From Bradyrhizobium ottawaense (GTDB taxonomy: Bacteria > Pseudomonadota > Alphaproteobacteria > Rhizobiales > Xanthobacteraceae): DNA of 64,000 bases. Below are positions 38,195 through 47,224 of this stretch, in pieces. Under the pieces are notes generated by a model. It saw only the letters and a list, made by a program, of their open reading frames with translations, was not told the origin of the DNA and ran no database searches. A program made the translations under genes and the position numbers. How positions within the stretch are numbered: the first letter of the stretch is position 1; each line of letters begins with the position of its first letter. The DNA lies in assembly GCF_900099825.1 (NCBI RefSeq), contig NZ_LT629693.1:6831001-6895000 (forward strand), in the 5' to 3' direction.

Positions 38195-38932
38195 TTGCAC
38201 TATCTGAGGTCGATCCTGTTCGCGGCGGCGGTCGTGATCCTGACGATTGTCGTGTCACTGACGGTACCCTTCCTGTGGCTGTTCAAGGCCAGCAGCGCGA
38301 CGGTTCGCGCGGTTTCGCAGGTCTGGGTCAAAGGGATCATGTTTCTCTTCAGGGCCGTTCTCGGGCTCGACTACCGGGAATACGGGCGAGCCAATGTTCC
38401 CGACGGCCCCTGCATCATTGCCTGCAATCACCAGTCGCTGTGGGAAACGGCGGCGCTGAGCGCGATTTTCCCGGACGCCAGCATCGTTGCCAAGAAGGAG
38501 CTGAGCCGGCTTCCGATCGTCGGCTGGTTTCTGCAGCGCTACCCGATGATCCTGGTCGATCGCGCCGCCGGCCGGCACGCGCTCAAGCAGATGGTCGAGG
38601 AGGCCAAGCGCGCGGTCGCGGAAGGCCGCAAGGTGCTGCTGTTTCCGCAAGGCACGCGGCAGGCGGTCGGCGATCCCATGGTGTTCCAGGCGGCCGGCAT
38701 CTCCGCTCTCTACACCACGCTCGATGTGCCGGTGGTGCCGGCGGCGTGCAATTCCGGTTTGTTCTGGGGCAAGAAGACGCTGATGATCCACAGCGGCACC
38801 GTCAAGCTCTCCTATCTCCCGCCGATTGCGCCCGGCATGAACCGCAAGGAGTTTCAGCCGATGCTGGAGAAGATGATATCGGAGGAGAGCGAGAGGCTGG
38901 TCCGCGAAGGCGAGGCGAAGGTTTCGCCCTAG
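38195..38932 (+). CDS. 1-acyl-sn-glycerol-3-phosphate acyltransferase (PlsC family)
   Basis: 245 residues. An N-terminal membrane helix (residues 7-30) is followed by the acyltransferase motifs ACNHQSLWETAAL (His-x4-type motif I, variant with Gln-Ser-Leu-Trp-Glu), KKELSRLPIVGWF and LLFPQGTRQAVGDP (motif III), then VPVVPAACNSG (motif IV). It acylates lysophosphatidate in phospholipid synthesis. The start is taken as TTG at 38195 because GGGAGGG lies nine bases upstream and no ATG fits the membrane helix. The 3' end overlaps the convergent gene by four bases. Confidence 0.9.
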   Translation: MHYLRSILFAAAVVILTIVVSLTVPFLWLFKASSATVRAVSQVWVKGIMFLFRAVLGLDYREYGRANVPDGPCIIACNHQSLWETAALSAIFPDASIVAKKELSRLPIVGWFLQRYPMILVDRAAGRHALKQMVEEAKRAVAEGRKVLLFPQGTRQAVGDPMVFQAAGISALYTTLDVPVVPAACNSGLFWGKKTLMIHSGTVKLSYLPPIAPGMNRKEFQPMLEKMISEESERLVREGEAKVSP

Positions 38933-39510
38933 CCCGCGCGACGCCCGGCAAGCGAGCCGGCCAACGGCGCGATGAAGGCGAGGCACCAGGTGAACTGCGC
39001 AATGGTCGGATCGACCAGCGCGATCGCCGTTCCGCACAGGAATACGACGACGGGGAACACGGCCGTCACCAGCAGTTGCGAATCCGGGCGGTCCCTGAGG
39101 GCGAGAACCCACAACAGCGCGTTCAGCGTGGCGATAGACGTCAGATGGATTCCGTAGACGATCGCGACCACGCTATCGAGCCGGTAGCCGCCGTAAAGTC
39201 CGTTGGTCACCGGCAGGATGATGATCGTCAGCAGAAAAAGCAGATTGAGGAACACCACGCCGCGGCCGGCCTCCGGCGCCACCGCGAGCCGGCGATGATG
39301 GCTGAACCAGAACAGCCCGGCGACGACGAAGGAGATCGCCAGCGCGATGACCGGTTGCGCATAGACGCGAACGAGGTCGATCCAGCCGGGCGCGCTCTTG
39401 AAGCTGGAGGCCTTCGGCAGGTCATAAGCGAGCAGCGTCATGGCAACGCCGAAGATGGTATTGCTCAGCATTTCCAGCCGGCGCATTTCGAACAGATGAA
39501 GTTGCGGCAT
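38929..39510 (-). CDS. TMEM175/DUF1211 family membrane protein
   Basis: 193 residues, six predicted membrane segments, about the size of one bacterial TMEM175 subunit. The first helix reads RLEMLSNTIFGVAMTLLAYDL, where canonical K+-channel members have Phe-Ser-Asp. Here Leu-Ser-Asn stands in that place, so potassium conductance is uncertain. LFWFSHHRRLAV follows helix 3 as in the family. It converges with the PlsC gene, and its promoter side faces tRNA-Leu. Confidence 0.8.
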   Translation of the reverse strand: MPQLHLFEMRRLEMLSNTIFGVAMTLLAYDLPKASSFKSAPGWIDLVRVYAQPVIALAISFVVAGLFWFSHHRRLAVAPEAGRGVVFLNLLFLLTIIILPVTNGLYGGYRLDSVVAIVYGIHLTSIATLNALLWVLALRDRPDSQLLVTAVFPVVVFLCGTAIALVDPTIAQFTWCLAFIAPLAGSLAGRRAG

Positions 39511-39754
39511 GTCGTCCCTTGCTTCACCAGTCGGCTGCGCCACGCGTAGCCCGTAGCGGAGGCTGCATCGCTGTCGGTCGTCGTTTTCGCTGCGCTCAAG
39601 CTATGCCGGACACGCTTCGCCCAAACGGTCTCAAGGGCTGCGCCACGCATAGCCCTCGGGCGCCTGGCTTGCCAAGCCGTAGCTCGCGGCCACACGGCCG
39701 GCCTTCGCCTAAGGCCTCGGCGCGGCAGCCCTCTCTCGCTTCGCGAGCGAAGGC
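39511..39754. other. Intergenic spacer between TMEM175-like gene and tRNA-Leu
   Basis: GC-rich sequence with no supported gene. Short imperfect repeats of the cgctgcgctcaa / cttcgcgagcgaag kind occur, the latter a small hairpin just past the tRNA 3' end that may terminate its transcript. Confidence 0.5.
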
Positions 39755-39841
39755 TGGTGCGGGCGGTGGGAGTCGAACCCACACGACGTTGCCATCGAGG
39801 GATTTTAAGTCCCTTGCGTCTACCAGTTCCGCCACGTCCGC
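39755..39841 (-). tRNA. tRNA-Leu (anticodon TAA)
   Basis: 87 nt including an encoded CCA. Acceptor GCGGACG at the 5' end, D-arm with AACTGGTAGAC, anticodon arm GGGACTTAAAATCCC with anticodon TAA, a long variable arm (TCGATGGCAACGTCG) as in class II tRNAs, and a TPsiC arm GTGGGTTCGACTCCCAC. The 3' acceptor strand CGCCCGC leaves one A-C mismatch at pair 5. Confidence 0.95.
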
Positions 39842-40269: not shown

Positions 40270-40608
40270 TTAGATGCAGGTGGCGAGGAGCAGCGGTGGA
40301 CCGAAGGTTACAGCGGTCGCGACGAGGGCAGTTATAAGGGTCCATGTGACGGTCCGATGCAGAAACGTGCCAGTTGGACCGAAATCGGGGTCAGTGCCAG
40401 CTCGGGTGATGTCGCGCCACATCCAGCCGATCACGATCAGATGGACGAAGAATACCACGGCGAGCCCCAACCGCAGCGAGCCGGACGCCCAGGCAAAAGC
40501 GCAGCCGATGGCGTGGAGCGCGTAGAGCGCGACCAGCGCACTGCACCAGACTGCGAATCCCGCCGCGAGCCACCATAGCCGCCTTGCTGGTATCGCACGC
40601 TCACTCAC
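40270..40608 (-). CDS. Small membrane protein of the terminal oxidase operon
   Basis: 112 residues with a GTG start that overlaps the oxidase subunit I+III stop by four bases (GTGA). It has three hydrophobic segments: WWLAAGFAVWCSALVALYAL, LAVVFFVHLIVIGWMW and the C-terminal TLITALVATAVTFGPPLLLA. No metal motif is seen. By position it is an accessory or assembly subunit of the heme-copper oxidase. I do not recognise the family. Confidence 0.75.
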   Translation of the reverse strand: MSERAIPARRLWWLAAGFAVWCSALVALYALHAIGCAFAWASGSLRLGLAVVFFVHLIVIGWMWRDITRAGTDPDFGPTGTFLHRTVTWTLITALVATAVTFGPPLLLATCI

Positions 40609-43139
40609 GGTCGAGCCGCCAGCATCGTCACGAGCGCAGGCAGAGCGAGAACAAGGCCCATTGCAATGACTCCTGTAACCAGCGTGTAGTCGAGCCATAA
40701 TCGCGTGAGGCGTAGATCCAGTACGCGCCGGGACGCAATGAAACCGGCACCGACACGCAGGAAGTTGCTGACGAGGAAGAGAAGGCCGATACCGGCGTGG
40801 AGAGCCACATAGCCGAGCAGCGCCGCCGCGGTCGCGCCGAGCGCATGCTCGCTCGGATGTGGCGCGACATCGACGATCAACCCGACGGCGGCGGCGATGG
40901 CCGCAAGAAGCGCCGGCACGGCGAGACCAATCCAGCCGCGCGCCCTGCCACCAGTGGTGACCGCTCGCAGCGAACCGCGCGCCGCCGCGGCAGCTGCAGC
41001 AAGGGCCGCGACGGCGAACACGGCGAGCATGCGGCTCGGTTCGGGTGTGATCGCCGCGGGCCAATTCGGCGCTGCGATCCAAAGATAGAAGGTCCCGAAC
41101 AGCAACGATGTGAAGAGAGTGCCGTCGGCGACCAGCGTGCAGATCAGCGCCAACCACGCCGGCGCTTCGGCCACCTCGGTATGAGGTGGCAAGCTGATGC
41201 CTTGACCGACGGGCATAGGACCGAAGTCGCGCGCGAGACCGGCGCGGTTCGCGGAGAACACGAACATGCCGGCGGTCACTAGCGCAACGACCAGGGCCAG
41301 CAGGTAGAACTTAAACAGAAGCGTCAGGACCGCCGCTGCGGTCGCGAGCGCGGTAAAAAGCGGAAGGTAGGTCGGTTGCGGCAGCACGATCAGTTGTTCG
41401 GGCTCGCCGGTCGTCATGTTTACGCCTAGCGTCTCCTGCCAGCCGTTACGCGTGAAGCCGAGATAGCCTTCGCCTCGCGCCAGCGACAGTGCGAGATCGT
41501 CGGGAGCGATCGCGTCGGACCGTGTTAGATGCGGGATCGAGGCGAAGGCATACGGTGCAGGCGGGATCGACATAGCCCATTCCAGTGTCGCCGCGCCCCA
41601 GGGATTGCGCCGCACACGACGCCCGTAACGGAGTTGAACGAAAAGGTCGATCACCACCAGCGCGAAACCAATCGTCATGACGAACCCCCCAACCGAAGAC
41701 AGCAGGTTGAGCCAGTTCCAGCCTTCATTGCCCCGATAGGTATAGATGCGGCGGGGCATGCCGAGCAGACCTGTCAGGTGCATCATAAAGAAAGTCAGGT
41801 TGAAGCCGACGAAGACCAGCCAGAAGGCCGGTACCGACAGCCGGTGCACGGCGGTGCGCCCTGTCAACAATGGCAGCCAATAGTAAAAAGCCGCCAGCAT
41901 AGGGAAAGCGAGGGCGCCAGCCACCACATAGTGCATGTGGGCAACGACGAAATAGGTGTCATGGGCCTGCCAATCGAACGGCACCATGGCGAGCATTACG
42001 CCAGTCAGTCCGCCCATCACGAAGATGAAGAAGAAGCCGAAAACGTAAAGCATTGGCACGCTCCAGCGTGGCTTGCCGTGTGCCAGCGTGGCAAGCCAGG
42101 CGAAGATCTGTACTGCTGTCGGCACGGCGACGATCGCCGAGCCTGCGGAGAAAAAGGCGAGCGCGAGATGCGGGATACCCACGGTAAACATGTGGTGCAC
42201 CCAAATGCCGAAACTCAGGAATGCGAGTGCCACAATCGCGACGACGATCGCCCGGTAGCCGACAAGCGGACGACCGGCGAATACCGGAATGATCGTCGAC
42301 AGAACCCCGGCCATGGGCAGGAAGATGATGTAAACGTCCGGATGACCGAACAGCCAGAACAAGTGCTGCCAGAGCAGAGGGTCGCCGCCTCGGGTGGGGT
42401 CGAAGAACGGCAGGCCGAAGGCGCGCTCGATCTCAAGCAGGATTGAGCCGAGGATGAGCGGCGGAAAAGCCACCACCATCATCAGCGCAGTGACCAGGAT
42501 GTACCAGCCGAAGATCGGCATCCGGTCGAGCGACATGCCGGGCGCACGTACCTTCAGGATCGAGACGACGATCTCCACGGCCAGCGACAGCGCCGATATC
42601 TCGACGAAGGTCACGCCGAGAAGCCAGACGTCGGCGTTAATGCCCGGAGTGTACACATTGGAGCTCAGCGGCGTGTACATGAACCATCCGCTGTTGGGCG
42701 CAACCCCCGCGATCAAGGACACGGTCAGGATCGTGCCGCCGAACAGATAGCACCAGTAGCCGTAGGCGGTGAGCCTGGGAAAGGCGAAATCACGCGTGCC
42801 GAGAATCTTCGGGGTCAAATAGACCGCGAAGCTTTCCACCATCGGGATGGCGAAAAGGAACAACATCATGGACCCGTGCATGGTGAAGACCTGGTTGTAG
42901 GTCTCTGGATCCATGAAGGCTGCGTTGGGCGTCGCGAGCTGAACGCGGGTCAGCATGCCGAGCACACCAGCGATGGCGAAGAAGGTGAATGACGTGATCA
43001 TCATGCGCATGCCGATCACGGAATGGTTGACCGCCGCGAGGCGTTGTAACCCCGGCCCGGTGGCCCAGATCGCGGCGAGCTCGCGGTGCAACCGCAACGC
43101 CGGAGGTCCCTGCGGCAGCGGCTCGACGGGTTCACTCAT
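40605..43139 (-). CDS. ctaD: Cytochrome c oxidase subunit I fused to subunit III (heme-copper oxidase)
   Basis: 844 residues. Residues 1-510 are subunit I with about twelve helices. Heme ligands are His88 (MHGSMM), His401 and His403 (VAHMHYVV). CuB ligands are His266 (GHPDVY) and His315-316 (VHHMF), and Tyr270 is the expected His-Tyr cross-link residue. After a soluble linker (residues 520-590), about seven further helices resemble subunit III. In A-type enzymes the 268 position is Glu and the 344 position is Lys (K channel); here they are Asp and Gln. The start overlaps the subunit II stop (ATGA). Confidence 0.93.
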   Translation of the reverse strand: MSEPVEPLPQGPPALRLHRELAAIWATGPGLQRLAAVNHSVIGMRMMITSFTFFAIAGVLGMLTRVQLATPNAAFMDPETYNQVFTMHGSMMLFLFAIPMVESFAVYLTPKILGTRDFAFPRLTAYGYWCYLFGGTILTVSLIAGVAPNSGWFMYTPLSSNVYTPGINADVWLLGVTFVEISALSLAVEIVVSILKVRAPGMSLDRMPIFGWYILVTALMMVVAFPPLILGSILLEIERAFGLPFFDPTRGGDPLLWQHLFWLFGHPDVYIIFLPMAGVLSTIIPVFAGRPLVGYRAIVVAIVALAFLSFGIWVHHMFTVGIPHLALAFFSAGSAIVAVPTAVQIFAWLATLAHGKPRWSVPMLYVFGFFFIFVMGGLTGVMLAMVPFDWQAHDTYFVVAHMHYVVAGALAFPMLAAFYYWLPLLTGRTAVHRLSVPAFWLVFVGFNLTFFMMHLTGLLGMPRRIYTYRGNEGWNWLNLLSSVGGFVMTIGFALVVIDLFVQLRYGRRVRRNPWGAATLEWAMSIPPAPYAFASIPHLTRSDAIAPDDLALSLARGEGYLGFTRNGWQETLGVNMTTGEPEQLIVLPQPTYLPLFTALATAAAVLTLLFKFYLLALVVALVTAGMFVFSANRAGLARDFGPMPVGQGISLPPHTEVAEAPAWLALICTLVADGTLFTSLLFGTFYLWIAAPNWPAAITPEPSRMLAVFAVAALAAAAAAARGSLRAVTTGGRARGWIGLAVPALLAAIAAAVGLIVDVAPHPSEHALGATAAALLGYVALHAGIGLLFLVSNFLRVGAGFIASRRVLDLRLTRLWLDYTLVTGVIAMGLVLALPALVTMLAARP

Positions 43140-43825
43140 TTTCTCTCCGACTCCCCTGATACGGCCGCCCGCGCAAGCGCAGCGGAGAATTCCTCCGGGC
43201 GATGGACGATGACATCGAATCGCATCCCCGCGTGACCGAGACCGCAAAATTCGTTGCATTGGCCTGCGTAGCGGCCCGGTTGATCGGCCTGAATGCGCAA
43301 GCGGTTCACATGCCCGGGCACCGCATCGATTTTGCCGGCGAAGCGGGGTATCCAGAAGGCGTGGATGACGTCCTGGCTGGTGACAAGGATGTCGACCGGA
43401 GTGCCTGCGGGCAGGTGCAAGACGTTTCGAGTTTTCACCCCGTCATGATCGGGGTAGCGGAAGGTCCAGACCCATTGCCGACCCACTGCCTCGATCCGTG
43501 GCGGCGCCAGTCCAGGTAACGGCAGGAGCCTCTCACCGGCGATCAACGCATAGGCGACAAGAGGCAGCAGGACGACGGCCGGCAGAACCAACCCGCCGAG
43601 CACGATCCAGCGTCCGGGCGACACGTTCGAGCCCCAGCCCGGACGCCGGATCACCATCGCGAACAGCACCATCACGAGCGCGAAGAGAATTCCCGCACCA
43701 ACCAGCATCAACCACCACAGCGTGGCGATCGAAGCCCCGGCCGGCCCCGAGGGATCTAGCGTCGACAGTGGCCCATTGCAGCCGGGAAGTACTGCGAGCA
43801 TTCCGACTTGGATCAGCGCGTACAA
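43136..43825 (-). CDS. ctaC: Cytochrome c oxidase subunit II (CuA lipoprotein)
   Basis: 229 residues from TTG at 43825. The N terminus carries a lipobox-like LAVLPGC, then two membrane helices (residues about 30-105) and the periplasmic CuA domain. Copper ligands are His in SQDVIHAFWIP and the Cys-x3-Cys-x3-His-x2-Met of GQCNEFCGLGHAGM. It passes electrons from cytochrome c to subunit I. The start is uncertain: an internal ATG at 43801 would leave too short a signal, and longer frames run into the divergent gene at 43880. It is followed by the fused I+III subunit. Confidence 0.9.
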   Translation of the reverse strand: MYALIQVGMLAVLPGCNGPLSTLDPSGPAGASIATLWWLMLVGAGILFALVMVLFAMVIRRPGWGSNVSPGRWIVLGGLVLPAVVLLPLVAYALIAGERLLPLPGLAPPRIEAVGRQWVWTFRYPDHDGVKTRNVLHLPAGTPVDILVTSQDVIHAFWIPRFAGKIDAVPGHVNRLRIQADQPGRYAGQCNEFCGLGHAGMRFDVIVHRPEEFSAALARAAVSGESERK

Positions 43826-43879
43826 GAGACTACGATGTCTGCTTGAAGGATGTTTCGATTGACGCGATGGAGGAGGACG

Positions 43880-44392
43880 ATGGCAAAGCAACGCGATCTC
43901 AAGACTCAGCCCCGGAGTGAGGTCCAGCTGGAACTGCTTCGACTTGATGTCGGTTCGGCGATGGCCCTCGTTGGGCACCCGATTCACGTGATGATGGTGC
44001 ATTTCCCGGTCGCATTCGTGATCGCGACCCTCGGCGTCGATATATTGTACTGGTGGTCGGGAGACGCGTTCTGGGTGCGGGCTGGACTCTGGTCGGCCGG
44101 CATGGCGTTCTGGAGCGGCGTGGCCGCAAGCATCGTCGGCACCGGTGAGCTGTTGCTTGTGCGCGGGATCCGGCTTCTTGAAGCAAGCTGGTCTCATGCC
44201 GTGGCGGCGATGACGCTGGTTGCGATCGGGGGAGCCAACTGGGGTCTGCGCCTGATCGATACCGCGGCGATCTTGCCGCACGGCCTCGCCCTCTCGGCCC
44301 TCGCGTCGGTGATGGTGGGCTTCGCCGGCTGGCACGGGGGCAAGCTTGTGTTTGATCATGGCGTGGGGATTCTGATTTCGCCGAAGGACTGA
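43880..44392 (+). CDS. DUF2231 family membrane protein
   Basis: 170 residues. GHPIHVMMVHFPVAFVIATLGVDILYWW (residues 33-60) is the DUF2231 signature with three His positions, followed by three more helices. GGAGGAGG lies a few bases before the ATG at 43880. DUF2231 proteins often sit beside cytochrome or copper genes, but their role is unknown. It is divergent from subunit II by 54 bp, and its 3' end overlaps the convergent CopD-like gene by 37 bp. Confidence 0.85.
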   Translation: MAKQRDLKTQPRSEVQLELLRLDVGSAMALVGHPIHVMMVHFPVAFVIATLGVDILYWWSGDAFWVRAGLWSAGMAFWSGVAASIVGTGELLLVRGIRLLEASWSHAVAAMTLVAIGGANWGLRLIDTAAILPHGLALSALASVMVGFAGWHGGKLVFDHGVGILISPKD

Positions 44393-44868
44393 TGCAGCCA
44401 ACGCCCGAGTCCGCCGGGCTCGAACAAATGCGCAGCGAATTGGTTCGAATCAATGTGCGGCTTGGCCAGCACCACCCAGATAATTGCGGTGATCAATACG
44501 ATGTAAGCGCTCGTCAGCGCCACGTAGGGAAATCGACCGAACTGGCCCTTAGGCGAGAACAAGGGCGGGAGAATGAGGCCGGCGACGACGTGCAGCATCG
44601 CCATGGCTCCGACCAGCGCCATTTTCAGGGAGAACCATTCCACGAAGGTGGTCTGCAAAAAGATGAGTGCCGTTCCGCTGGCGATGGCGACGAAGGCGGC
44701 GGGGGAGGCCATCTCTACGTAGACGAACCGAGCTACCCGGTGCAGTCGGTCGAGATCCAACCCCGCCTCGAGTTTCCTCCGCTGCCAGAAAAGAAACGGC
44801 AAGACGATCAACCCGGCCGACCAGAGCGCGATCGCGGCAAGATGGACGAACTTCAGAGAGGTCGTCAT
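44356..44868 (-). CDS. CopD-like membrane protein
   Basis: 170 residues, about four to five helices. It begins MTTSLKFVHLAAIALWSAGL, with the HLAAIALW pattern of copper-resistance D domains. It then has RLHRVARFVYVEMASPAAFVAIASG and a His in AMAMLHVVAGLILPP. It is likely a copper or heme import or assembly partner of the oxidase. The ATG overlaps the CtaG stop by four bases, so CtaG and this protein are cotranslated. Confidence 0.78.
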   Translation of the reverse strand: MTTSLKFVHLAAIALWSAGLIVLPFLFWQRRKLEAGLDLDRLHRVARFVYVEMASPAAFVAIASGTALIFLQTTFVEWFSLKMALVGAMAMLHVVAGLILPPLFSPKGQFGRFPYVALTSAYIVLITAIIWVVLAKPHIDSNQFAAHLFEPGGLGRWLHQSFGEIRIPTP

Positions 44869-45587
44869 AGCGCTGGTTCGCTCGATCGCAAGTTGGACCA
44901 CGCGATCCAGACCCCCGCGCCTAGATAAGGTAGCATCGCCGGTACCCACATCAGCAAACCAGCAAGTTGCTGATCAGTGAGCGGCGCGAGCCCCCAAGCT
45001 GCCGTACTTGCGAAATGCACCGGATAGAGTGGCCTGGACGCGAACACGATCAACGCGCCGAGAAGGCCCATCTGCCCAATCGTTGCAGCGAGTGCAACCA
45101 GCGCCGAGCCGGACTGCGCCGGCACCAGGATCGCCCGCCACAACAGCCAAGCGCTTCCAAGGAGCGAAGTCTGCATCAGCCAATAGGCCGGCACGCTGGC
45201 GAGGCCCCAAGCATAAGGTCCCGGTGTGTGCCATAGCCAAAGGATGACTGCATGTGCCGCAACAAGCATGGCGAGTGACGGCGTTCCTGCGCGTCGTTGC
45301 GGAAACGCCAGTGCCAAAAGAGGGGCTACGGCGGCGATCAACAAGACGTGGTGCAATACCCGCACCGAAAACAACGCTGACGACAACGCACAAAGCGGCG
45401 AGACAAAGATAACGAGCATCAGCACGATCGCGCCCCAGCCTGCTCGCGTGTTGGAGGATCGGCTGCGGGCAACCGCAAGCGCCAAGGCTGCGAGTATTGC
45501 AATCAGCAGCGGATCGACATTCCAGCGGGTCCAGAGGTCGTCCGGGACGGCGGCGGGACCGCAATAGGCGATCATGGAATTCGGCAC
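44865..45587 (-). CDS. Cytochrome c oxidase assembly protein (CtaG/Caa3 family)
   Basis: 240 residues, about seven helices. LSSALFSVRVLHHVLLIAAVAPLLAL (HH pair near residue 78), HAVILWLWHTPGPYAWGL and LLMWVPAMLPYLGAG are signatures of the caa3-type CtaG membrane family, distinct from the Cox11 type. It helps deliver copper to the CuB site. It is the first gene of a two-gene unit with the CopD-like gene and faces the flavoprotein gene across a 314-bp divergent spacer. Confidence 0.9.
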   Translation of the reverse strand: MPNSMIAYCGPAAVPDDLWTRWNVDPLLIAILAALALAVARSRSSNTRAGWGAIVLMLVIFVSPLCALSSALFSVRVLHHVLLIAAVAPLLALAFPQRRAGTPSLAMLVAAHAVILWLWHTPGPYAWGLASVPAYWLMQTSLLGSAWLLWRAILVPAQSGSALVALAATIGQMGLLGALIVFASRPLYPVHFASTAAWGLAPLTDQQLAGLLMWVPAMLPYLGAGVWIAWSNLRSSEPAL

Positions 45588-45901: not shown

Positions 45902-47224
45902 ATGCAGCTTCTATATAGTTTGCGCGGGGCCGTTTGGATCCTCGTCTACCTGCTGTTCATTCTCGCTCCCTTGTTCGCGCTCCTGGCTGGTTCGCATGCG
46001 CCGACGCGCGATTTCTGGACAGAATTCTCTGTTGCCCTCGGCTACTCCGGCCTTGCGATGATGGGCCTGCAGTTCGGTCTCACCGCGCGCTTCCGGTACG
46101 TCACCGAGCCGTGGGGCGAAGACGTGATTTACCATTTTCACCGTCAAATTTCGCTCGTAGCGGTCGGCTTGGTCGTAGCGCATCCCGTCATTCTGGTGAT
46201 CGTTCAGCCGGAATTACTCGCGCTGTCCAATATGCTCGAAGCGCCGTTGAGTGCCCACCTCGCTCTTCTGTCGATTTTCTCGGTGATAGCGCTCGTGGTG
46301 ACAGCCCTTTGGCGCGCGACGTTGAATCTCAAATACGAGACATGGCATTTCACCCATATCGTGCTCGCGGTCGTTGCCATCACCGCGGGGGTCGTGCACA
46401 TGGTGGGATCGAGTTTCTATCTGGCGGATCCCTGGAAGCAGTCTCTGTGGATAGGCCTGACGATTTTTTGGATCGGACTGCTGCTTTACGTGCGCATCGT
46501 CAAGCCGCTGGTCATGCTTCGCCGTCCGTACCGCGTCTCGGAGACGCGTCAAGAACGCGGCGAAACGACCACGTTGGTGATGCAGCCGGAGGGCCATCCG
46601 GGATTTCACTTCAGCCCCGGCCAGTTCGGCTGGTTGACGGTCTGGGGGAGTCCCTTCAAGATCACCGCGCATCCATTCTCATTCTCGTCCAGCGCCGCAG
46701 CGAAGGGGGGCGGCGTCGAGATGTCGATCAGGAATCTGGGTGACTTCACTAAAGAGATACAGAGAGTGCCGGTGGGCAAGCGTGTCTACCTCGACGGACC
46801 GTACGGCGCGTTCACAATCGGCAACCCGGCGGACATGCACGTATTAATCGCCGGTGGTGTCGGTGTTACGCCGATGATGAGTATGATCCGCACGCTCGCT
46901 GATCGCGGCGACAAGCGGCCCGTGATTCTGCTCTACGGCAGCAAGGACCGGGAATCGATTACCTTCCGCGAGGAGCTGGAGTTGCTGGAAGCGCGGCTCG
47001 ACCTGACGGTCGTCCATGTGTTGGCGAACCCGCCGGCGGGCTGGACCGGCGAACAAGGTTTCATCAACGCCGAGATGTTCAAGCGTCATCTGCCGCCACC
47101 TTATTCCGATCATGAGTACTTCATCTGCGGACCCGGCGTGATGATGGATGCAATTGAAAAAGCGCTCGCCGAGATGGGGGTGCCGATGGCGAAATACCAT
47201 TCCGAACGCTATAGCTTCGTCTAG
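45902..47224 (+). CDS. Ferric reductase-like transmembrane flavoprotein (NOX/FRE type)
   Basis: 440 residues. Residues 1-210 hold six membrane helices with His residues in YHFHRQISLVAV, VVAHPVILV, TWHFTHIVLAV and GVVHMVGSS that suit two b-type hemes. Residues 215-310 form the FAD domain (FSPGQFGWLTV, then AHPFSFSSS), and residues 310-440 the NAD(P) domain (AGGVGVTPMMSMIR and EYFICGPGVMMDAI). It would move electrons from NAD(P)H across the membrane to iron, copper or oxygen. GAAGGATC precedes the ATG. The microprotein at 47235 follows at once. Confidence 0.9.
   Translation: MQLLYSLRGAVWILVYLLFILAPLFALLAGSHAPTRDFWTEFSVALGYSGLAMMGLQFGLTARFRYVTEPWGEDVIYHFHRQISLVAVGLVVAHPVILVIVQPELLALSNMLEAPLSAHLALLSIFSVIALVVTALWRATLNLKYETWHFTHIVLAVVAITAGVVHMVGSSFYLADPWKQSLWIGLTIFWIGLLLYVRIVKPLVMLRRPYRVSETRQERGETTTLVMQPEGHPGFHFSPGQFGWLTVWGSPFKITAHPFSFSSSAAAKGGGVEMSIRNLGDFTKEIQRVPVGKRVYLDGPYGAFTIGNPADMHVLIAGGVGVTPMMSMIRTLADRGDKRPVILLYGSKDRESITFREELELLEARLDLTVVHVLANPPAGWTGEQGFINAEMFKRHLPPPYSDHEYFICGPGVMMDAIEKALAEMGVPMAKYHSERYSFV

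Follow-up and report, generated by a model that had tools for sequence, protein, structure and literature searches.

A family of COX1–COX3 fusion oxidases with altered proton-channel residues, represented in Bradyrhizobium ottawaense

Introduction

Ideas about how A-type heme-copper oxidases gate pumped versus consumed protons rest for the most part on mutants made in the laboratory. Could an enzyme from nature that keeps the whole active site and carries changed residues along both proton channels take another route, and would it still pump? This question is raised by a 64,000-nucleotide stretch of the Bradyrhizobium ottawaense genome (contig NZ_LT629693.1, positions 6,831,001 to 6,895,000; hereafter the window), in which a minus-strand gene (40605..43139) encodes the catalytic subunit of an oxidase as an 844-residue fusion of COX1 and COX3. 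Based on a comparison of this protein with its relatives, we propose that it belongs to an accessory A-type cytochrome c oxidase of a distinct COX1-3 subfamily, in which the D-path appears to be rebuilt and pumping is probably weak or absent. We give this reading a probability of roughly 0.55.

Results

An intact fusion gene with a complete active site

The gene is an intact open reading frame and a real COX1+COX3 fusion, and its product scores above the CtaD_CoxA equivalog cut-off. An AlphaFold2 model (predicted local distance difference test, pLDDT, 85.3; predicted template modeling score, pTM, 0.89) has the subunit I fold of A-type COX1 structures and aligns over 761 residues with subunit I+III of the Thermus caa3 oxidase (2yev). 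Compared with five homologues, the ratio of nonsynonymous to synonymous substitution rates (dN/dS) is 0.09–0.13; the gene is under purifying selection. The matches listed include close ones from Bradyrhizobium (86–87% identical).

Residues are numbered below as in the fusion protein (the query), followed by the position in Rhodobacter sphaeroides; bovine N98 corresponds to R. sphaeroides N139. The heme and CuB ligands and the cross-linked tyrosine of A-type oxidases are all present, as the original prediction had stated: H88, H266, H315, H316, H401 and H403 are invariant in an alignment of 38 sequences, and Tyr270 (Tyr288; codon 42330..42332, minus strand) occurs in each of the 109 family members defined below, together with Trp280, His284, Arg481 and Arg482 (R. 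sphaeroides numbers). As judged from these residues, the predicted heme/CuB/Tyr site is complete.

A residue census defines a glutamine family

We aligned 136 COX1 sequences and split them by the residue at the position of the K-channel lysine (Lys362; Gln344 in the query, codon 42108..42110, minus strand). This separated 109 glutamine sequences, the query included, from 25 lysine sequences and two others (Ala in L137, Thr in L007). The lysine, or K-type, set consists of 19 of 20 hand-picked regions plus L001, L002, L003, L005, L101 and L102, whereas the twentieth region, L121, turned out to be of the glutamine type. L004 and L088, both of which represent the query gene itself, had been left out beforehand, as had L006, which gave no usable match. 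By motif, the K-type sequences were assigned as aa3-like, as A2 (two sequences with that motif, L106 and L110) or, in several cases, as quinol-type. Identity to the query is 40% or more for every glutamine sequence (40–100%) and below 39.4% for every lysine sequence.

Asp268, Gln344, Thr124, Val106 and Asp117 had been named correctly in the original prediction, and the alignment points to these residues as traits fixed in a family. The census rules out chance or misread residues, and the same pattern recurs when the query is considered together with the 120 closest proteins listed, which head a ranking of 7997 scored proteins.

The K-channel is changed in both subunits

The K-channel is usually regarded as essential for reduction of the active site. 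Besides the lysine, its lower part differs at Ser365, which in the 109 glutamine sequences is replaced by Ala (92), Cys (11) or Val (3) and kept in three. The upper part is largely retained: Thr359 is Thr in 95, Ser in 11, Ala in two and Asn in one, and Ser299 is Ser in 105 and Ala in four.

COX2 sequences were available for 93 of the 109 members. At the position of Glu101, the K-channel entry, they carry Val (68), Ile (12), Gly (4), Met (3), Ala (2), Leu (2), Gln (1) or Phe (1) and never Glu; the query COX2 has Val. The His96 position is Pro in 63 of the 93, and His is absent from its eight commonest residues.

The window COX2 gene (43136..43825, minus strand; TTG start at 43825 inferred) encodes a protein whose N-terminus resembles a lipoprotein signal (LPGC). 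All six CuA ligands (H, C, E, C, H, M) are present, as expected for a cytochrome c oxidase. A CxxCH motif, as in the cytochrome c domain that marks the COX2 of caa3 oxidases, was sought in the window COX2 and not found; in the family, nine of 93 COX2 sequences contain one. In six of the 93 (L078, L079, L080, L081, L082 and L084) the CuA cysteines are lost; the resulting sequence, for example SAEFSGVGY, resembles the quinol-type COX2 of L003. These substitutions suggest that some family members have switched to oxidizing quinol.

The D-channel has lost asparagines and gained carboxylates

N121, N139, N207 and D132 are invariant in all 25 K-type sequences. In the glutamine family, Asn is never found at N121: Val106 of the query (codon 42822..42824; this and the following codons lie on the minus strand) is Val in 60, Ile in 33, Met in 10, Leu in four, Gly in one and Phe in one. 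Thr124 (N139; codon 42768..42770) is Thr in 67 and Ser in 26, hence Thr or Ser in 93 of 109, with Asn in 10, Gly in five and Ala in one. The entry residue Asp117 (D132; codon 42789..42791) is mostly kept (Asp 97, Asn 10, Glu 2). The positions of S142 and S200 are Gly and Ser in the query.

A scan for residues fixed specifically in the family revealed three gained carboxylates that the original prediction did not contain. Glu102 (codon 42834..42836), which in transmembrane helix (TM) II precedes the N121 position by one helical turn, is Glu in 108 of 109 members, whereas the K-type sequences have Gly (15), Ile (5), Asn (2), Thr (2) or Val (1). Glu180 (G198; codon 42600..42602) in TM IV is Glu in all 109 and Gly (22) or Ile (3) in the K-type set. 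Glu189 replaces N207 at the D-channel neck (codon 42573..42575) in 107 of 109. In the query and the 120 closest proteins listed, one of these three positions is Glu in all 121 sequences and the other two in 120 of 121, with a gap in the remaining one. On a helical wheel of TM II, Glu102 (R. sphaeroides position 117) lies 0 degrees off the channel-lining face, for which three published lining residues (as named in PMC10341450) at –80, 20 and 40 degrees served as reference.

The aspartate that replaces E286, Asp268 (codon 42336..42338), was among the residues of the original prediction but is not the core of the change. The position is Asp in 50 and Glu in 59 of the 109 members. Asp arose later, in the query's subclade, which it marks, and separately in L094 outside that clade; we discard it as the main novelty.

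A distinct and patchily distributed family

For phylogenetic analysis the family was thinned at 88% identity to 47 members; the partial sequence L073, included in the census, was omitted. In a tree calculated without the nine diagnostic columns, a branch with support 96/98 has the K-type sequences on one side, and the Asp subclade that includes the query receives 100/100. After addition of two actinobacterial chains, a single branch again separates glutamine from lysine sequences (Shimodaira–Hasegawa-like approximate likelihood ratio test 100; quick search, no bootstrap). The glutamine family is monophyletic with respect to the K-type sequences used, which came from the query's own and 18 related genomes plus the two actinobacterial chains; this sampling does not extend to Archaea, Bacteroidota, Chloroflexi or Thermus. 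The branch leading to the outgroup L007 is very long, and both trees warn of long branches meeting, which leaves the root unsure. Within this K-type sampling and with this root, trees and residues disfavor a placement inside A1 or A2. Placement in a known subfamily with Asp and Gln fixed at these sites and with normal pumping had been named as the finding that would refute the original prediction; of this, the comparison bears out half, with Gln fixed throughout the family and Asp fixed in the query's subclade.

Glutamine-type matches (E ≤ 1e-130) are present in at least 14 of 248 other Pseudomonadota genomes, a lower bound because scoring was restricted to the top three candidates in each genome. 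This number derives from a raw tally of 16 of 249, which counted the query's own genome and G279, whose sequence has Ala rather than Gln. That sequence, L137 (G279:C2:344357-346180), also reads GHPWVYAI, with Trp in place of E286, and keeps Asn at N121, N139 and N207. The family is widespread though little studied, and its records span what we take, from the genus names, to be alpha-, beta- and gammaproteobacteria. The 14 hosts counted contain three to eight genes with the heme-copper oxidase domain PF00115, which means that these genomes encode further heme-copper-type proteins, and none of the 14 has this oxidase alone; the B. ottawaense genome (8.34 Mb, single contig) has seven. Among 35 same-genus relatives, only one (G015) has a close form (88%), an occurrence that indicates patchiness and nothing further. 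The base composition of the cluster is uninformative about a recent transfer, since its guanine-plus-cytosine content (0.61–0.63) falls inside the window range (0.58–0.66).

The gene cluster is conserved

From 45587 to 40270 on the minus strand, the order of genes is CtaG, UPF0093/HemJ-like, COX2, COX1+COX3 and a small membrane protein. The first encodes a Caa3_CtaG-type copper assembly factor (44865..45587; PF09678) and the second a UPF0093/HemJ-like membrane protein (44356..44949; PF03653). The last (40270..40608), directly 3′ of the fusion gene, encodes a small transmembrane protein without a family match, a candidate small subunit. Between COX2 and the HemJ-like gene, a DUF2231 membrane protein (43850..44392; PF09990) is encoded on the plus strand.

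We compared this arrangement with 80 related loci, the best among 115 confirmed relatives, which had been chosen for COX1-3 homology and located by six peptide patterns, none of which spans a diagnostic residue. Near COX1-3, COX2 recurs at all 80 loci, the HemJ-like gene at 79, and CtaG and DUF2231 at 78 each. In L059 and L063 the DUF2231 gene is found downstream of the small gene instead, and the small gene itself has a homologue at 59 loci. A ferric-reductase-like membrane flavoprotein with an NAD-binding domain (45902-47224 of the window, plus strand) has a homologue near the oxidase cluster at 41 of 80 loci. A GntP-like flanking gene recurs at only three, and no homologue of the TMEM175-type potassium channel gene (38929-39543, minus strand; PF06736) was found near any of the 80 related oxidase loci; both therefore lie outside the cluster. 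A tRNA-Leu (TAA) gene (39755-39841, minus strand) adjoins the cluster.

Discussion

A possible proton route through a rebuilt D-path

From the residues described above we infer both the proton route and the degree of pumping. Electrons would enter through the CuA site of COX2 and be used at the heme/CuB/Tyr site, both of which appear complete. The lower K-path seems dismantled, with Lys362 replaced by Gln and Ser365 by Ala or Cys in COX1 and Glu101 and His96 lost from COX2, while its upper part (Thr359, Ser299, Tyr288) remains. The D-path, which keeps its entry Asp, has no Asn gate (N121, N139) and a Glu in place of Asn207; Glu102 is predicted to face the channel from TM II, and Glu180 lies on TM IV. 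Rebuilt and lined with carboxylates in this way, it could carry all or nearly all protons. Such an enzyme, retained alongside other oxidases, might act as an oxygen sink of low coupling. In ordinary A-type enzymes, the D-channel carries all pumped and two or three chemical protons and the K-channel one or two (PMC8079940). Given that the K-channel entry residues are gone from COX1 and COX2 alike and that the D-side has gained acids, an enzyme that uses only the D-channel and pumps weakly or not at all would be the simplest reading. Pumping is probably weak or absent because Thr or Ser at N139 decouples ordinary oxidases: the bovine variants N98D, N98T and N98S are reported to reduce O2 while pumping is lost (PMC12901375). 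The complete site and changed proton path of the original prediction are borne out, and extended by the family-wide loss of the Lys together with the COX2 Glu and by the gained carboxylates; its weak pumping or other route is consistent with these residues.

Several observations weigh against a D-only, weakly pumping enzyme. The study of the bovine variants itself argues that pumping proceeds via the H-pathway, not D (PMC12901375), in which case D-channel residues say less about pumping. According to a table in the same paper, the Lys is replaced by Thr or Gly in B- and C-family oxidases, which nevertheless use a K-like path; a Gln there is thus no proof of a dead path, and Thr359, Ser299 and Tyr288 are largely kept. 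Loss of the COX2 Glu alone is not diagnostic: two of the five K-type sequences with a COX2 (L003 and L005) also lack it, and three have it. On the D-side, Glu180 points about 126 degrees away from the channel face on the helical wheel. Moreover, 10 of the 109 sequences, called CoxN-like here, carry Asn in place of the D-channel entry Asp while retaining N139; to judge by that entry residue, these ten cannot use the canonical D-path. Finally, the N139T/S phenotype comes from enzymes without the gained carboxylates, which could restore coupling.

Restored coupling is the essence of a rather unlikely alternative, a fully coupled pump with an alternative D-path in which Glu102, Glu189 and Glu180 take the place of the Asn gate and of the proton-loading geometry, leaving H+/e– near 1. 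The near-absolute conservation of the three carboxylates suggests a selected proton device, not decay, and A2 enzymes, which lack the Glu, are perhaps no different from A1 in proton translocation (PMC6431628), which would mean that the D-path tolerates rebuilding. Against such a pump, Thr or Ser at N139 belongs to a class of substitutions with which other A-type enzymes no longer pump (PMC12901375), and loss of K-channel residues affects the path of the one or two protons that do not normally pass through D (PMC8079940). That a K-like path is still used, with water, Gln344, Thr341, Ser281 and Tyr270 conducting as in Lys-free B- and C-family enzymes, we regard as quite improbable: Thr359 and Ser299 are mostly kept, Tyr288 is found in 109 of 109, and ba3 and cbb3 are tabulated with Thr and Gly at the Lys position (PMC12901375), but the entry residues are gone from both subunits (no Glu101 in 93 COX2 sequences, Pro at His96 in 63, and Ser365 replaced in most COX1 sequences).

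It is very improbable that the enzyme is a degenerate or regulatory oxidase that reduces O2 inefficiently and is kept for another role. The hosts counted do have other heme-copper-type genes, and examples from oxidases that are only possibly related would fit: a Rhizobium etli coxMNOP mutant is described as having no distinct growth defect (PMC4274787), the caa3 oxidase of Burkholderia cenocepacia with its fused I+III subunit as unexpressed at every O2 level tested (PMC11742914), and the c(c)aa3 enzymes of Pseudomonas pseudoalcaligenes KF707, coxMNOP included, as suggested to be unable to sustain aerobic growth alone (PMC5492768). Conservation of the Tyr, Trp280, His284 and both Arg in 109 of 109 members, a dN/dS of about 0.1 and the CtaG assembly gene at 78 of 80 loci speak against it. 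Returning to the rebuilt D-path, a stricter version can be put forward tentatively: a natural single-channel A-type family in which the K-channel is dismantled on both subunits, a carboxylate-lined D-path (D117, E189, E102 and D/E268) delivers all chemical protons, and no pumping takes place. If that version is true, evolution has fixed laboratory decoupling mutations in working enzymes.

Whichever route is used, this is a natural family in which decoupling-type residues are fixed, key residues of the second channel are lost and acids are gained. A single member could serve to test the need for the Asn gate and the K-channel in turnover and in pumping, and the family bears on whether heme-copper oxidases of low coupling are something that bacteria maintain purposely. 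For metabolic models, the annotation “cytochrome c oxidase subunit I” is no licence for 1 H+/e–.

Comparison with known oxidases

The ten CoxN-like sequences (L096–L100, L133–L136 and L138), which we take to be rhizobial CoxMNOP-like enzymes and five of which are from same-genus genomes, share with the query the Gln at the Lys position, Glu180 and, in nine of ten, Glu189 (Ala in L138), and they lie off the K-type side of the tree. Unlike the query, they have D132N and keep N139, their matched COX1 stretch is 600–624 residues long, and their COX2 carries CxxCH in the five cases with a COX2 (L096–L100).

The fusion with subunit III had been counted as part of an unusual make-up. It is no novelty: Thermus thermophilus caa3 (2yev) has the same I+III fusion, from which the query differs by a COX2 without CxxCH, and the published COX operon type a, or A1 subtype a (PMC4013037; PMC6431628; example R. 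palustris BisA53), shares a COX1-3 fusion with the query. In alphaproteobacteria, type a is often associated with Caa3_CtaG, a frequent though not strictly defining feature that is also present here (PF09678). The likeness to type a is by description only; what these papers say of it concerns the fusion, the operon and the COX3 helices rather than proton-channel changes. In the literature searched, we found no description of the Glu102/Glu180/Glu189/Gln344 signature; supplements and subscription papers lay beyond that search, and prior notice is possible. Loss of the K-channel as such has been reported for archaeal family A oxidases, with as many as seven separate losses in one of the two scenarios considered (PMC8239418).

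Compared with the canonical aa3 oxidases (A1) of Rhodobacter and Paracoccus, the query is alike in its active site, Tyr288, Ser299, Thr359, Asp132 and CuA site, and differs by K362Q, N121V, N139T, N207E, G198E, E286D and the loss of COX2 Glu101. Measured against the A1 residues of PMC3084760 (Table 2; Paracoccus denitrificans numbers), it retains the K-channel residues Thr351, Ser291 and Tyr280 (as T341, S281 and Y270) and the D-channel residue Asp124 (as D117), but has Gln for Lys354, Val, Thr and Glu for Asn113, Asn131 and Asn199, and Asp for Glu278, where 59 of the 109 members have Glu. Hence it departs from the A1 channel definition, although type a is filed under A1 in the literature (PMC4013037; PMC6431628). 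The Tyr-Ser motif of A2, with Tyr in place of the Glu, is absent as well: the query reads GHPDVY, in contrast to YSHPAVY in the two K-type sequences L106 and L110. Taken together, the combination of channel residues is a variant within the known A type, outside the A1 channel definition and without the A2 motif, in an enzyme whose fusion is itself known and which keeps the A-type fold and active site.

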